A stretch of 39,586 bases of DNA from Candidatus Eiseniibacteriota bacterium (GTDB taxonomy: Bacteria > Eisenbacteria > RBG-16-71-46): NCBI GenBank assembly GCA_005893295.1, contig VBOY01000011.1, positions 1-39,586 on the forward strand. The letters are read 5' to 3'. The translations under genes were made by a program, and so were the position numbers. The notes below the pieces were generated by a model. That model did not search any database. It saw only the letters and a list, made by a program, of their open reading frames with translations, and was not told the origin of the DNA. Every line of letters starts with the position of its first letter. Position 1 is the first letter of the stretch. Below are positions 30,939 to 36,527 of this stretch, piece after piece.

Positions 30939-31238
30939 TCAACCGTCAAAACGCGGCCGGACGTTTGCCCCGGTGCCGAAGCGCTTGGCCGTCCGCATTT
31001 GGGCCTTGATTGCCTCGGCCCCTCGATCGCGCGGAGGGGCCGTCGTGACCAAGGATTCGAGCAAGCGGCGGGCGATCACCGCGATGTCCTCGGCCGCCTT
31101 GTCGAACGCCCCCTGATTCGCCTGAGACGGCTTGTGGAACCCCGTCAGCTTGCGAACGAACTGGAGCGAGGCGGCGCGCACTTCGTCCGCGGACGCCGGG
31201 GGATCGAAGTTGAAGAGTGTCTTGATGTTCCTGCACAT
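30939..31238 (-). CDS. DUF2277 family protein
   Basis: A 99-residue protein of a widely conserved but uncharacterised family. The N-terminal signature MCRNIKTLFNFDPPA is diagnostic, followed by EVRAASLQFVRKLTGF, KPSQANQ and the C-terminal LVTTAPPR. Helical, cytoplasmic, no catalytic motif assigned; the N-terminal Cys is invariant in family members I recall. GGGAGG 7 bases upstream fixes the ATG at 31238; the longer open frame upstream is not used. It follows the flavoprotein gene by 49 bases on the same strand and may be the distal gene of the lipid cluster, or an independent gene. Confidence 0.93.
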   Translation of the reverse strand: MCRNIKTLFNFDPPASADEVRAASLQFVRKLTGFHKPSQANQGAFDKAAEDIAVIARRLLESLVTTAPPRDRGAEAIKAQMRTAKRFGTGANVRPRFDG

Positions 31239-31287: not shown

Positions 31288-32442
31288 TCAAATCCTACCA
31301 CCCAAGCGGCGTGACGGGCCGAACTCGAACAGCGCCCGCGTGCCGCCGGCGACGCCGAGCAGGTGGGAGAGCGCGGTCGGCCACGAACGCAGCGCGCCAA
31401 GGGCAGGCGGAACGAGCCCGGGATGCCGGGCGAGCCACAGCATGCCTCGCGTGACGGTCGCGTAATCGCGTAGCAGGGCCGCACGCCCTCGCTCGAACTC
31501 GGGAAACCAGGAGTCCGCCTCTGCGACTCCGCGCGACGCGAAGCGCGCGAGCAGCTCTGCGCCCTGCAGCGCGTGGGTCATGCCGCCACCGGCGATCGGA
31601 TCGAGGGCTCCCGCCGCATCGCCCAGAAGCACCACGCCCGGCGCGGTGCCACTCCGCGCCCCCGCCAAGGGGAACGTTCCGCGCACGGGCGTCAGCCGGG
31701 ACGCTCCGCGGAGGCGCTCGGCGAGAAGTGGCTGTGCGTGCCACCAGCGCTCGAACAGGATCTCGGCCGGTGCGTGAAGCGGTTCTGCGTCGGCCAGTGC
31801 CGCGACCAGCAGCTCGCCTCGCGGGAGCGACGCGACGTAGAGCTCGTGGCCCTTGCCGAGGTAGATGTCGACCCAGGGCGACGCCTCGAAGCCGTCGGCG
31901 ACCCGAAAGTGGGCCCGCATACCAAGCCGGCGCCGCCGCAGCGCTCGATCGAGTCCCAGCGCCCGCCGGATGCGCGAGTGGACACCGTCCGCCGCGACGA
32001 TCAACGGCGCCCGATGCGCGGCTCCGTCGATCATCAGGCCGGTGACCCGACCGCGCTCGACGATCGGACCCTCGACCATCGCTTTCGTCCGTGCGCGCAC
32101 GCCGGCGGTACCCGCCGCCGCCTCGAAGAGCACCCGGTCGAGCACGACGCGGCGCTGGGCGAGACCTTCCCGCGGGCCGGCGCCAGCCGGAAACCGCCCA
32201 GACACCACCCTTCCGCGGAAGTGGTAGCGAACCCCTCGAAACGGCATCCCTCCCACCCCGTCGACCAGACCGAGACGCCGCAGCACCGCGACCCCGGCCG
32301 GCATGAGTCCCTCTCCGCACGCCTTCTCGCGCGGGAAATCGTCACGCTCGAACAGCTCGACCGCGAGCCCCGCGCGTCCCAGAAGGATCGCCAGCGTGGA
32401 GCCGGCGACGCCTCCTCCCGCGATCAGGACGTCGGGCTTCAT
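31288..32442 (-). CDS. FAD-dependent oxidoreductase, geranylgeranyl reductase / aromatic hydroxylase type
   Basis: A 384-residue flavoprotein of the PHBH-like fold. FAD-binding GGGVAGS is at 9-15 and the acidic ERDDFPREKACGEGL follows with the CGxGL pattern of geranylgeranyl-reductase-family members; ADGVHSRIRRALG and LLGDAAGALDPIAGGGM are the second and third FAD motifs. It could reduce isoprenoid-type double bonds or hydroxylate a phenolic lipid; the location directly behind a type III PKS parallels SrsC, the flavin hydroxylase that oxidises alkylresorcinols to quinones in Streptomyces griseus. ATG at 32442 lies 17 bases after the PKS stop, so same operon. The C-terminal part (about 300-384) is hydrophobic and could approach the membrane. 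Confidence 0.9.
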   Translation of the reverse strand: MKPDVLIAGGGVAGSTLAILLGRAGLAVELFERDDFPREKACGEGLMPAGVAVLRRLGLVDGVGGMPFRGVRYHFRGRVVSGRFPAGAGPREGLAQRRVVLDRVLFEAAAGTAGVRARTKAMVEGPIVERGRVTGLMIDGAAHRAPLIVAADGVHSRIRRALGLDRALRRRRLGMRAHFRVADGFEASPWVDIYLGKGHELYVASLPRGELLVAALADAEPLHAPAEILFERWWHAQPLLAERLRGASRLTPVRGTFPLAGARSGTAPGVVLLGDAAGALDPIAGGGMTHALQGAELLARFASRGVAEADSWFPEFERGRAALLRDYATVTRGMLWLARHPGLVPPALGALRSWPTALSHLLGVAGGTRALFEFGPSRRLGGRI

Positions 32443-32459
32443 GGGGCCTCGCCGAGTGC

Positions 32460-33536
32460 TCAATCCCAGCGCAGCAGCAGCATGTCCGCGCTGAAGCCCG
32501 GGCCGAAGGCGGCGAGCAGACCATGAGCACCGCTCGCCGGCGTGTGCCGCGCGAGCCATTCGTGAAGCACGAACAGAACCGATGCGCTCGACTGGTTGCC
32601 GTACTCACGCAGCACGTGCCAGGAGCACTCCGTGTCCTGGCGCGTGAGACCGAGCTCCTCCTCGATGAAGCAAAGAAGCTTCTGCCCGCCGGGGTGGACG
32701 ATGAAGGCGGACAGCTCCTCGCGGCGCAGGCCAGCGCGCGCCAGGAAACCGTCCACCAGCCCCCGGACGCGCTCGCGAATCATGTCGGGCACTTCGCGCG
32801 AGAGAACGATATGGAAACCACCCTCCTTGAGATCGAACCCCATCGCATCGAGGGAGCGCGGGAAGAGATAGCTTTCGGTCCGGACGATTCGCGGCCCCCT
32901 TCCCTCGTGTCCTACCACGACGACCGCCGCCGCGCCGTCGCCAAACAGGATCGAGGAGATGAGATTGGCCTGCGAGGTATCGTGCCTCTGGAACGTGAGG
33001 CTGGGCAGCTCCACCGCCACGATCAGCACCGTAGCCCCGGAATATGCGCGCAGGAAATCGGCAGCGCGTGCCAGCGCGGAAGCCCCGGCCGCGCAGCCCA
33101 GCTCCGTGATCGGCAGCCGGCGCACGTCGGGCCGGAAGCCGAAGCGGTTCGCGAGGTGCGCATCGAGCGAAGGAATCATCACCCCGGTACACGACACGGT
33201 GATCACCAGGTCGACAGCCGTGGGCGGGAGCCCGGCGCGTGCCAGGCAATCGGCCGTCACCTCGGCCCCGAGCCGAACCGAGTGCTCGGCGTACGCCCGG
33301 CTGATCTCATCGAGCGGTCGAGGCTCGATGATGTCGTCGATCGGCTGGACGCAATAGCGCTGGTTCACCTCCGAGTGCCCGACGATGGCCAGCATCGCCT
33401 GCAATCGCGCCCCATCCAACGAAAAGACGCGTTGCAAATACGCTCTCACCTCGTCCTGACCGATGCAGAACGGAGGCACGGCCGTGGCCGTGGCCGCGAT
33501 GGTGACCGGCCCTTCGGACCGGCGTTCCGGAGTCAT
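32460..33536 (-). CDS. Type III polyketide synthase (chalcone/stilbene synthase family)
   Basis: A 358-residue homodimeric-type enzyme that extends an acyl starter with malonyl-CoA and cyclises the chain. The catalytic triad is visible: Cys148 in ITELGCAAGAS, His281 in FIVHPGGQK and Asn314 in YGNQSSAS; LLFGDG-like ILFGDGAAAVVVV and the C-terminal AFGPGFSADM loop (GFGPG in plants) are also present. TCTGVMIPS-like SCTGVMIPSLDAHL is conserved. Bacterial relatives make alkylpyrones or alkylresorcinols from long-chain acyl starters. The operon also contains a YceI-like protein upstream (9 bases) and a flavoprotein downstream (17 bases). ATG 33536 has only a weak ribosome-binding site, consistent with coupling. 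Confidence 0.95.
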   Translation of the reverse strand: MTPERRSEGPVTIAATATAVPPFCIGQDEVRAYLQRVFSLDGARLQAMLAIVGHSEVNQRYCVQPIDDIIEPRPLDEISRAYAEHSVRLGAEVTADCLARAGLPPTAVDLVITVSCTGVMIPSLDAHLANRFGFRPDVRRLPITELGCAAGASALARAADFLRAYSGATVLIVAVELPSLTFQRHDTSQANLISSILFGDGAAAVVVVGHEGRGPRIVRTESYLFPRSLDAMGFDLKEGGFHIVLSREVPDMIRERVRGLVDGFLARAGLRREELSAFIVHPGGQKLLCFIEEELGLTRQDTECSWHVLREYGNQSSASVLFVLHEWLARHTPASGAHGLLAAFGPGFSADMLLLRWD

Positions 33537-33545
33537 ACCGCCGGC

Positions 33546-34145
33546 TCAGCGAGCAAGTGCGATCTCGAATTCGACCCGGACTTCGTCCTTGACCCTCACG
33601 GTGCCGCCCGCGACGGTCACGGGTTTGATACCGAAGTCGGTCTGCTTCAGCCGGGCCGAGCCACGATAGGATTCGCTCGCGCGTGTCACCTTGAGGCTCA
33701 CCGGTCGCGACTGGCCGTGCAGCTCGAGGGTTCCGCGCACCGACCAAGACTCCTGGCCGGTCTTCTCGATCGCGGTCGATCGGAATCGAATCTCGGGGAA
33801 ACGCTCGACGTCGAGGACCTTGGGCCCCAGCATGGTCCGCTGAACTTCAGATCGCTTGCGCTCCGCCAGGTCGGGATCGAGCACCCGCAGGGTTCGCGAT
33901 TCCACGCGAAGTTCGACGGACGGCGCCCCAGCGTCCACGGTTCCCGCGGCCAAGGGGGCAGCGATCTCGTGGTCGTGGGCGAACCGCGAGAAGATCCCAG
34001 ACTTGGACACGAACACCGTCATATGCGAATGGTGGGCGTCGATCGGGCGCGAGTCGTCGGCCCACGCAGGAGCCGCGAGGCCGACCACGAAGAGGATCAG
34101 GACGAGCGAGGCGCTCGTACCGCGGCACAGCGATGCAAGTCTCAC
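33546..34145 (-). CDS. YceI-like periplasmic lipid-binding protein
   Basis: A 199-residue exported protein. Signal peptide about 1-29 (LVLILFVVGLAAPAWA). The rest is the YceI lipocalin-like barrel: IDAHHSHMTVFVSKSG near the mature start, VLDVERFPEIRF, VRGTLELHGQSRPVSLKV and ARLKQTDFGIKPVTVAGG. YceI members bind polyisoprenoid or amphipathic molecules in the barrel. GTG at 34145 has an excellent AAGGAG 6 bases upstream. It is the first gene of the operon with the type III PKS, 9 bases apart, so a role as carrier for the PKS-derived lipid is a reasonable inference. Divergent from the ACP gene. Confidence 0.92.
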   Translation of the reverse strand: MRLASLCRGTSASLVLILFVVGLAAPAWADDSRPIDAHHSHMTVFVSKSGIFSRFAHDHEIAAPLAAGTVDAGAPSVELRVESRTLRVLDPDLAERKRSEVQRTMLGPKVLDVERFPEIRFRSTAIEKTGQESWSVRGTLELHGQSRPVSLKVTRASESYRGSARLKQTDFGIKPVTVAGGTVRVKDEVRVEFEIALAR

Positions 34146-34236
34146 GACTCACTCCTTCCACCAAGATACCCTTTCGATGGGACGCCCACCAACCGAGTCG
34201 CCTCAATTCGGCCGGGTGTCTCGCGCCGGATGAGGC

Positions 34237-34242
34237 TATCAT
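34237..34242 (+). promoter_or_regulatory. -10-like element upstream of the ACP-KS genes
   Basis: TATCAT, preceded by GGC, stands 39 bases before the ACP ATG. A matching -35 box is not clear. Weak evidence, but it is the best -10 candidate in the 136-base divergent spacer with the YceI gene. Confidence 0.25.
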
Positions 34243-34281
34243 GGGGCCCTCGCAAGCGGATTCACCCCCTCGAGGGACCAC

Positions 34282-34566
34282 ATGGACGACACCCTGACCG
34301 AACAAGTTTGCCTCGCCTTGTCCAAAGTGAAGCGCATCCCGAGGGAGGACATTGCCCCGGAGAACACGCTCGAATCCCTGCACCTGGATTCCCTCGACAC
34401 CATCACGCTTATGTTCGAGCTGGAGGAGTCACTGGGGGTCACGATTCCCGACGACCAGGTGCGCGGCATTGCGACGGTGCACGACATCATCGAAGGCATG
34501 CGCCGTCTCAAAGATGGCGCGTCAACCGGCGCATCGCCGAACGCTCCCGCGACGGCCGAGACCTGA
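34282..34566 (+). CDS. Acyl carrier protein
   Basis: A 94-residue carrier protein. The phosphopantetheine attachment serine is Ser37 in HLDSLDT, followed by the helix-II sequence ITLMFELEESLGVTIPDDQ typical of ACPs. Residues about 78-94 (DGASTGASPNAPATAET) are a flexible tail, longer than in housekeeping ACPs. AGGG 5 bases upstream of the ATG falls inside the palindrome CCCTCGAGGG (34267-34276). Only 3 bases separate its stop from the ketosynthase, so the two form a unit, comparable to NodF-NodE or other specialised ACP-KS pairs. Likely holds an acyl chain for the adjacent lipid pathway. Confidence 0.93.
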   Translation: MDDTLTEQVCLALSKVKRIPREDIAPENTLESLHLDSLDTITLMFELEESLGVTIPDDQVRGIATVHDIIEGMRRLKDGASTGASPNAPATAET

Positions 34567-34569
34567 CCG

Positions 34570-35787
34570 ATGCAACGGCGCGTGGTCGTCACCGGGCTCG
34601 GCTGCATCAGCGCGCTCGGAGCGAACACACGGGAGTTCTGGTCCGCGCTCTGTGAATGCCGCCCGGGCATCGGGCCGCTGCACGCCGTCGAGCCCGGCCG
34701 GCTGCGCTTCTCGAACGGCGCCGAGGTGCGCGGATTCGTGCCGGCCGCCCATTTCGAGCCGTCGCGTCTGGACCTGCTCGATCGGTTTGCGCAGTTCGCG
34801 CTGGTCGCCGCGCGCGATGCGGTGACCGACTCGGGGCTCGACTGGACCCGCGAGTTGCGCGATCGCACCGCGGTGATCTGCGGCAGCTCGATCGGCGGCC
34901 AGACCAGCCACGACGATCAGTTCCTCGAGCTCTATCATCGGAATCGGGATCGCGTACACCCGCTCACGATCCCGCGAGTGATGTCGAACGCCGGCGCGAG
35001 CCATATCGCGATCGAGTTCGGGCTCACCGGGCCCACGTTCACCATCTCTTCGGCTTGCTCGTCGTCCAACCACGCGATCGGACAAGCGCTCTGGATGGTC
35101 CGTGAGGGTCGAGCCGACGTCGCCCTGACGGGGGGCAGCGAGGCACCCTTCAGCTACGGGATCCTGAAGGCGTGGGAGGCGATGCGCGTGGTCGCGCCGG
35201 ATACCTGCCGGCCATTCTCGCGGGATCGAAAGGGGCTGATCCTCGGAGAAGGGGGCGCGATGCTGGTGCTCGAACCGCTGGATGCCGCGCGCGCGCGCGG
35301 CGCCCGAATTTACGCGGAGCTGGCGGGCTCGGGTCTATCGGCCGACGCACATCACGCCACGCAGCCCCACGTTGCCGGACCGGCCCGCGCGATGCGCGCC
35401 GCGCTCGCGGATGCCGGTCTCGCGCCCGAAACCATCGGTTACATCAATGCACACGGCACGGGAACCCTCACCAACGACCCGGTCGAGGCGCGCGCCATCC
35501 AAGAAGTGTTCGGCGCGCACGCCGCCGCGATTCCGGTGAGTTCGACCAAGTCCCTCCACGGACACGCGCTGGGCGCTGCGGGAGCGCTCGAAGCCGTCGC
35601 CACCGTTCTGGCCCTTCATCACGGCCTGTTGCCGCCGACCGCGAATTTCACGGCCTCCGATCCCGAATGCGGGCTAGATGTCGTGCCCAACCACGCCCGT
35701 GCGGTGCGCCCCGAGGCTGCACTGTCGAACGCCTTCGCGTTCGGCGGCCTCAACGCCGTCCTCGCCTTTCGGGCGCTCTCAAACTGA
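34570..35787 (+). CDS. Beta-ketoacyl-ACP synthase (FabF/NodE-like)
   Basis: Condenses malonyl-ACP with an acyl chain. The 405-residue thiolase-fold protein has the nucleophile in SSACSSSNHA (Cys163), the first catalytic His in NAHGTGTLTND (His295), Lys327 in SSTKS and the second His in GHALGAAG (His332), and the gatekeeper region near the C-terminus reads NAFAFGGLNAVL, the FabF type (F-GG-N). It is thus a full condensing enzyme, not a chain-length factor. Linked to the preceding ACP by 3 bases. The position beside a type III PKS suggests it supplies or tailors the long acyl starter. Its stop codon lies in a stem shared with the converging methyltransferase gene. Confidence 0.94.
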   Translation: MQRRVVVTGLGCISALGANTREFWSALCECRPGIGPLHAVEPGRLRFSNGAEVRGFVPAAHFEPSRLDLLDRFAQFALVAARDAVTDSGLDWTRELRDRTAVICGSSIGGQTSHDDQFLELYHRNRDRVHPLTIPRVMSNAGASHIAIEFGLTGPTFTISSACSSSNHAIGQALWMVREGRADVALTGGSEAPFSYGILKAWEAMRVVAPDTCRPFSRDRKGLILGEGGAMLVLEPLDAARARGARIYAELAGSGLSADAHHATQPHVAGPARAMRAALADAGLAPETIGYINAHGTGTLTNDPVEARAIQEVFGAHAAAIPVSSTKSLHGHALGAAGALEAVATVLALHHGLLPPTANFTASDPECGLDVVPNHARAVRPEAALSNAFAFGGLNAVLAFRALSN

Positions 35788-35819
35788 GGGTTGCTTCGAG
35801 CTTGTGGGCGAAACCCTCA
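35785..35819. terminator. Hairpin spanning both stop codons of two converging genes
   Basis: TGAGGGTT (35785-35792) and AACCCTCA (35812-35819) are exact complements around a 19-base loop. The first three bases are the stop of the ketosynthase on the plus strand, and the last three give the TGA of the methyltransferase on the minus strand. It could end transcription in both directions; there is no T-run on either side. Confidence 0.45.
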
Positions 35820-36527
35820 CCCGCCGCGCCACCGGGCCATGAAGAGGTGACTGAAGAGACCGGCGGGACTCTCGTCGAGGCGCCACGCCTCGGACTTGGG
35901 CCAGTGGTCCGAGATCTCCCGGGCCGTGAAGCCGGCTCGTACGCTGATCGCGCCGTCGTGACGCGTCACCGAGTTGCAGCCGATCCATCCCATCCATCGA
36001 CAGGCGGCGAGGACGAACCGCGAGCGGTGGGGCTCGCAGGCCGCGAACGTCTCGCAGCTCTCCGCCACTCGGCCCAGCAGGGCTCGCAAGGGCGCCTCGG
36101 CAAAGTGATGGAGGAACAAGTTCGCGACCATCATCGTCCGCTCGCCAGGCCTCGCCGCGGCCAGCCAGTCGAGGACATCTGCGGCTACGATCTCGATCTC
36201 CCAATCCAGCTTTCGGAACGCCTCTCGCGTCGCGGCGCTCACCAGCTCCTGCCGGTCGACGAGGATCGCTCGCACGTGGCCGCACGACCGCGCCAGCCGC
36301 CGAGCGATGCTCAGGAGCAGCGTGCCGTCTCCCGCACCCAGGTCGACCAGGCGCTGGATATCGAGACCCAATCCCCCCCTTCTCAGGAGGCGCGCCATGG
36401 AATCGACGTGGCCCATCAAACGGTTCAGCCGTTGAAGATCCCGTCGAGAGCGTATGGCGTCCGGATCGCCGGCGGGCAATTGATCGAGCCATTCGGGCTC
36501 GACCCGACGGGGGAGCGTGCGTGGCAT
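35817..36527 (-). CDS. Class I SAM-dependent methyltransferase
   Basis: A 236-residue Rossmann-fold methyltransferase. Motif I is VDLGAGDG (61-68), motif II the acidic strand end around VDRQ, and NLFLHHF corresponds to motif post-II. The N-terminal EWLDQLPAGDPDAIRSRRDL (about 12-31) is, to my recollection, typical of methyltransferases found next to bacterial type III PKS genes, comparable in role to SrsB, which methylates alkylresorcinols. A longer frame starts at ATG 36641, but its extra 38 residues have lower third-position GC and no similarity, so 36527 is preferred; neither has a strong ribosome-binding site. It converges on the ketosynthase with 29 bases between the stops. Confidence 0.86.
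   Translation of the reverse strand: MPRTLPRRVEPEWLDQLPAGDPDAIRSRRDLQRLNRLMGHVDSMARLLRRGGLGLDIQRLVDLGAGDGTLLLSIARRLARSCGHVRAILVDRQELVSAATREAFRKLDWEIEIVAADVLDWLAAARPGERTMMVANLFLHHFAEAPLRALLGRVAESCETFAACEPHRSRFVLAACRWMGWIGCNSVTRHDGAISVRAGFTAREISDHWPKSEAWRLDESPAGLFSHLFMARWRGG

Follow-up and report, generated by a model that had tools for sequence, protein, structure and literature searches.

Does a six-gene block from a Candidatus Eiseniibacteriota bacterium encode a single lipid pathway, and if so, which lipid would it make? The block lies at positions 31288-36527 of the 39,586-nucleotide stretch of contig VBOY01000011.1 (assembly GCA_005893295.1) that we analyzed, called the window below. It combines a type III polyketide synthase (PKS) with a YceI-like barrel, a flavin adenine dinucleotide (FAD)-dependent oxidoreductase, an acyl carrier protein (ACP), a beta-ketoacyl-ACP synthase (KS), and an S-adenosylmethionine (SAM)-dependent methyltransferase. 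A preliminary description had seen in it a candidate pathway for a membrane lipid. We found that the grouping is not accidental, as the set recurs in other phyla, and we estimate a probability of about 0.5 that the locus makes a methylated, ring-oxidized phenolic lipid by the full five-step pathway proposed below.

Gene content of the locus and its recurrence

All six open reading frames were present as described, and each of the six families scored above its Pfam cut-off:

31288..32442, minus strand: FAD-dependent oxidoreductase with a group A flavin monooxygenase fold (384 amino acids [aa]; PF01494, FAD_binding_3, 56.8 bits)
32460..33536, minus strand: type III PKS (358 aa; PF00195/PF02797, Chal_sti_synt_N/C)
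33546..34145, minus strand: YceI-family lipid-binding barrel, predicted to be exported (199 aa; GTG start, hydrophobic signal-like N-terminus; PF04264, 76 bits)
34146..34281, no strand: 136-bp divergent spacer separating the YceI and ACP genes, presumed to hold promoters
34282..34566, plus strand: ACP (94 aa; PF00550, PP-binding; phosphopantetheine serine S37)
34570..35787, plus strand: FabF-type KS (405 aa; PF00109/PF02801, ketoacyl-synt N/C)
35817..36527, minus strand: cytosolic SAM-dependent methyltransferase (236 aa; PF13649, Methyltransf_25, 31.7 bits; PRK06202-like)

The YceI, PKS, and FAD genes are spaced by 9 and 17 bases on the minus strand, and the KS and SAM methyltransferase genes converge, as had been reported. 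The GC content at third codon positions is 0.80 to 0.82 across all six genes, in a source genome that is fragmented (189 contigs, 87% complete). Residue checks confirmed the earlier claim that all catalytic residues are intact: C148/H281/N314 in the PKS, C163/H295/H332 in the KS, S37 in the ACP, the GxGxxG-DG-GD motifs in the flavoprotein, and DLGAGDG in the methyltransferase. A DUF2277 gene (30942-31238, minus strand), about 50 bases downstream of the flavoprotein gene, falls outside the recurring set.

The Cys-His-Asn triad of type III PKSs is invariant in our alignment, and the closest solved structures to the window PKS are the alkylpyrone synthase Pks11, the RppA-like 1u0m, and CylI. DpgA, the top NCBIfam match, was rejected as an identity (183 bits against a cut-off of 425). 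Scanning 84,980 species genomes with a PKS profile yielded 186 relatives, and 80 loci were read. In the PKS tree, the window belongs to an eight-row clade (support 95) in which KS-ACP is found in seven rows, the FAD gene in five, the SAM methyltransferase in three, and YceI in two. More widely, related PKSs of Acidobacteria, Myxococcota, and Bacteroidota adjoin the same families in varying combinations. In one acidobacterial locus (L056), KS-ACP diverges from YceI-PKS-ICMT-FAD; L055 has this layout without YceI, and L057 has ACP-KS followed by PKS-ICMT-FAD-methyltransferase. The trio of type III PKS, FAD oxidoreductase, and methyltransferase is also found in Bacteroidota and in genomes G002 and G033; the Bacteroidota loci and G002 add KS-ACP and mostly SDR and FabZ-like genes, with a presumed phosphopantetheinyl transferase (PPTase) gene, judged by sequence alone, at several of the Bacteroidota loci. 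The preliminary description held that the grouping would be accidental if its families failed to co-occur with the PKS in relatives; every family does co-occur, YceI patchily and ACP-KS not only at PKS loci.

We then compared 47 genomes of the window's own phylum. Proteins matching the window PKS (at least 61%) and KS (80%) were found together in three others (G031, G032, and G034), all of which keep the divergent PKS/ACP/KS layout. In G034 (L107), a convergent SAM methyltransferase, 57% identical to that of the window, occupies the same place, and an FAD gene, cut off at the edge of a separate contig, points the way it would if it lay downstream of the PKS. G031 and G032 carry an ICMT-type membrane methyltransferase immediately after the PKS. 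Because of this difference, the locus has two tailoring versions, one with ICMT and one with FAD and SAM methyltransferase genes.

Other features of these PKS loci were recorded on the way. At a contig edge, the C-terminal region of the G034 PKS (L034, 1-305) is split between two reading frames, through either a frameshift or an assembly error. In five myxococcal-type loci (L106, L109, L110, L113, and L117), the gene immediately upstream of the PKS belongs to the Peptidase_U32 family, and a small 4Fe-4S ferredoxin gene takes that position in one acidobacterial group (L060, L061, L066, L070, L074, L079, L088, L097, L102, and L127).

A candidate five-step route and its known counterparts

The core of the locus, a type III PKS clustered with an FAD oxidoreductase and a methyltransferase, is of an already known kind, that of the hid, pkq, and srs loci. 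The preliminary description had likened it to SrsABC; the core does match that published kind, but close analogues reach beyond SrsABC to pkqABC-type, hidABC, and planctomycete operons. By gene content, the hidABC (hierridin) and Planctomycetota operons share all three core genes with the window (PMC10896814, PMC8086630), whereas their gene order differs and an ACP-KS pair is not mentioned. Of 96 PKS genes from planctomycetes, 58 belong to methyltransferase-oxidoreductase-PKS operons resembling cyanobacterial hidABC, and four of six tested planctomycete PKSs yielded C15/C17 alkylresorcinols in Corynebacterium glutamicum (PMC10896814). The pkqABC-type operons of Mycobacterium and Streptomyces, which lead to polyketide quinones with a respiratory role (PMC9927152), and the Streptomyces griseus srs operon resemble the window by description, with a PKS, a methyltransferase, and an oxidoreductase or hydroxylase that turn alkylresorcinol into quinone; unlike the window, they are actinobacterial and have no described ACP-KS or YceI. 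Two features are new here: a discrete FabF-type KS-ACP is combined with such a core, and YceI repeatedly adjoins the PKS. To that extent the combination is undescribed, as first claimed, but the PKS operon of the planctomycete-like strain 'Saltatorellus ferox' already had, besides two methyltransferases and a lipoprotein, a 'lipid/isoprenoid-binding protein' gene upstream of its alkylresorcinol PKS (PMC10896814).

The initial suggestion of a lipid pathway in which a flavoprotein and a methyltransferase accompany a type III PKS is supported. We propose that it would operate in five steps. In the first, a fatty chain on the ACP would be extended or shaped by the FabF-type KS, with general cellular enzymes serving as reductases and dehydratase; the PKS would receive it as acyl- or beta-ketoacyl-ACP, bypassing free CoA. 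The PKS, a type III enzyme by its active site, would then add malonyl units and close the ring. Third, the flavoprotein, with its group A fold, would hydroxylate the ring; ring hydroxylase is our best guess for its function, from the company of its gene. The SAM enzyme would next methylate the ring, standing in for the ICMT of most relatives. Finally, the YceI barrel, with its signal-like N-terminus, would bind the long-chain product in the periplasm, much as ubiquinone-8 or octaprenylphenol is bound by other members of the family, and would serve delivery or a redox or antioxidant function. The product would be alkylresorcinol-derived, possibly an alkylquinol or quinone; an alkylpyrone is less likely. 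Position 281 of ArsB/ArsC is reported to hold the residue that distinguishes resorcinol from pyrone formation (PMC9927152).

This proposal draws on the families and their intact active sites, the nearness of the PKS to Pks11 and CylI, the published PKS-methyltransferase-oxidoreductase operons, and the content of the eight-row clade. It draws as well on the linkage of KS to type III PKSs within 2 kb, an independent Bacteroidota KS lineage with ACP, SDR, FabZ-like, and presumed PPTase genes, the CylI precedent, the YceI-PKS adjacency, and the fold and ubiquinone-8 ligands of YceI proteins. Its weakest parts are the ACP-KS feeding and the YceI ligand, and the observations on these two, given in the next sections, count against it together with three others: close relatives offer no known product for comparison, and the ring may be a resorcinol or a pyrone; the fold of the flavoprotein also spans halogenases, epoxidases, and reductases; and the FAD and methyltransferase proteins of the window are unmatched in G031 and G032. 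We consider it improbable, though worth stating, that the locus represents a Gram-negative phenolic-lipid pathway in which the starter would come from a portable ACP-KS, transferred directly from ACP to PKS, and a periplasmic carrier from a YceI subfamily dedicated to the polyketide lipid or quinone would connect its synthesis with redox processes in the periplasm or with delivery to the outer membrane.

Starter supply and the ACP-KS pair

The window KS is a second FabF-like copy, since a housekeeping FabF lies elsewhere in the genome (G000:C142), near a FabH-like gene. It carries the Cys-His-His residues of a FabF-type KS, its neighbor ACP has the DSL serine, and its clade is separate from housekeeping FabF with support of 100/100. 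Carrier-protein feeding of a type III PKS has a precedent in the cylindrocyclophane pathway, where an ACP/type I PKS chain is handed to CylI, which makes an alkylresorcinol (CylB/CylD/CylH/CylI; PMC8086630); CylD and CylH are multidomain type I PKSs, whereas the window has one discrete FabF-type KS.

All 11 window-type KS copies in our first set were linked to a PKS, and genomes selected for their PKS had the KS at that place, but exclusivity to PKS loci was rejected as an effect of ascertainment when we sampled 200 genomes of an acidobacterial class irrespective of PKS content. In this sample, 43 genomes carry the window-type KS and only 4 of the 43 also a window-type PKS, so the KS lineage is not confined to type III PKS loci; a PKS lies near only 3 of 40 fetched KS loci, and genome-level co-occurrence is not significant (Fisher P values of 0.24 and 0.39). 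Since the pair is mostly unlinked to PKSs and shows no such co-occurrence, it may serve another lipid. Yet among the 24 acidobacterial genomes holding both genes, 8 have the KS within 2 kb of a type III PKS, against ∼0.04 expected (P ∼ 2e-17, assuming independent genomes, which is not fully true; the eight span two different PKS lineages), and the link to type III PKSs changes 8 times on the KS tree. The 200-genome sample, this linkage, and the tree changes together mark the ACP-KS as a secondary fatty-acid unit that is portable and recurs next to type III PKSs. It is not a dedicated PKS partner.

An explanation that we regard as possible, if rather doubtful, builds on this portability: the PKS, FAD, and methyltransferase core would start its phenolic lipid from ordinary acyl-CoA, like the planctomycete and cyanobacterial systems, and the ACP-KS would be a neighbor serving a separate lipid. 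It gains from the planctomycete alkylresorcinols formed in C. glutamicum, which were attributed to acyl-CoA starters with no special KS (PMC10896814), from the missing genome-wide co-occurrence, and from the ACP-KS standing by itself in roughly one-fifth of the sampled acidobacterial genomes, with a polysaccharide deacetylase gene (PF01522) just upstream of the ACP in 17 of the 40 KS loci (L215-L254). It is at odds with the repeated 2-kb linkage and its changes on the KS tree, with the ACP-KS staying next to the PKS in each of the four Eisenbacteria-like genomes found to have this KS type, and with the situation in Bacteroidota. There the KS forms a lineage separate from the window type (100/100 for each), and the KS-ACP pair was thus recruited beside type III PKSs at least twice. 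The earlier suggestion that a discrete ACP-KS replaces a dedicated fatty acid synthase we treat as a hypothesis not read from the genes, because the pair is portable and mostly away from PKSs in Acidobacteria.

We also noted an FAD-methyltransferase-PKS-SDR-FabZ-KS-ACP(-PPTase) cassette in Bacteroidota, with a variant in one Eisenbacteria-class genome (L124, L126, L128, L129, L130, L133, and L036). Here a type III PKS has next to it an almost complete type II fatty-acid set of its own, in which no enoyl reductase was noticed.

YceI cargo, tailoring enzymes, and product class

The YceI protein belongs to PF04264, and its AlphaFold2 model (predicted local distance difference test [pLDDT], 78) matches the polyisoprenoid-binding protein TT1927b (1wub; Foldseek E value, 2.5e-12), BcnA, and E. 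coli YceI, which agrees with the predicted lipid-binding barrel of the preliminary description. Known YceI structures bind octaprenyl compounds or ubiquinone-8 (PMC9113575). The window protein shares fold and Pfam family with TT1927b, E. coli YceI, BcnA, and GNA1030; such lipocalins are linked to a cytochrome b561 gene, whereas the window YceI is linked to a type III PKS, a pairing for which our literature search found no paper.

Copies 45 to 55% identical to the window YceI, sharing its FAHDH motif region, immediately precede the PKS at four loci of Acidobacteria (L056, L098, L100, and L122), which fall in separate parts of the PKS tree. Because of this recurrence we did not adopt chance insertion as our principal explanation, and we keep it as a rival with limited likelihood: the protein would be an unrelated stress or antioxidant lipocalin placed by accident between PKS and ACP. 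The gap between PKS and ACP does lack YceI in the three closest relatives, which qualifies the claim that the barrel is built into the operon. YceI is also patchy on the PKS tree (5 changes on 5 rows). Among 40 PKS-bearing genomes, partly picked to include the five PKS-abutting copies, which leaves the genome fraction little informative, seven close copies were found, two of them standing alone away from a PKS. The five of seven that abut one, a more informative figure yet also tilted by genome choice, are far above chance, and the lipid/isoprenoid-binding gene of the 'S. ferox' operon likewise speaks against chance insertion. L187 (4862-5548) encodes a more remote YceI relative, which has a GHDH motif, beside a sugar-transporter-like gene with no PKS nearby.

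As for tailoring, the flavoprotein model (pLDDT, 85) has squalene epoxidase as its best Foldseek match, followed by flavin halogenases and geranylgeranyl reductase (GGR)-like proteins. A flavin-dependent halogenase was rejected by the absence of the WxWxIP motif, and a GGR by the absence of YxWxFP and a TIGR02032 score of 124.7 bits, below the 158.8 cut-off. FAD copies 57 to 65% identical to that of the window are found at acidobacterial PKS loci and in G034, and more distant relatives of its SAM methyltransferase adjoin the PKS in Bacteroidota, G002, G033, and L057. Most relatives, in a correction to the initial picture, have the ICMT-type membrane enzyme beside the PKS instead. ICMT adjoins these PKSs more often than any other gene does (64 of 93 loci), following the PKS as in BpsA-BpsB of Bacillus and other ICMT-linked type III PKS loci; B. 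subtilis matches PF04140 in our control set. In contrast, the window locus has no ICMT and carries the cytosolic SAM methyltransferase and FAD genes. We rejected the idea that a cluster-type ICMT lies elsewhere in the genome: its single ICMT, on another contig, is unlike the cluster type.

The least likely alternative, a BpsA/BpsB-like alkylpyrone or its methyl ether with the flavoprotein acting on the alkyl chain, is suggested by the frequency of ICMT neighbors, which recalls the reported B. subtilis PKS-methyltransferase pair, by the nearness of Pks11, and by the squalene epoxidase match, but it fits poorly with a locus that has the FAD and cytosolic SAM methyltransferase set of resorcinol/quinone operons in a genome whose one ICMT is of another type.

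If such loci in Acidobacteria and Eisenbacteria-like bacteria make lipids like the polyketide quinones, this chemistry extends to soil phyla that are widespread and for the most part uncultured. For the YceI lipocalins, whose physiological cargo is unsettled, the recurrent adjacency to the PKS suggests a specific ligand to look for, and with the ACP-KS next to the PKS, the idea that type III PKSs are fed directly by acyl-ACP becomes testable.

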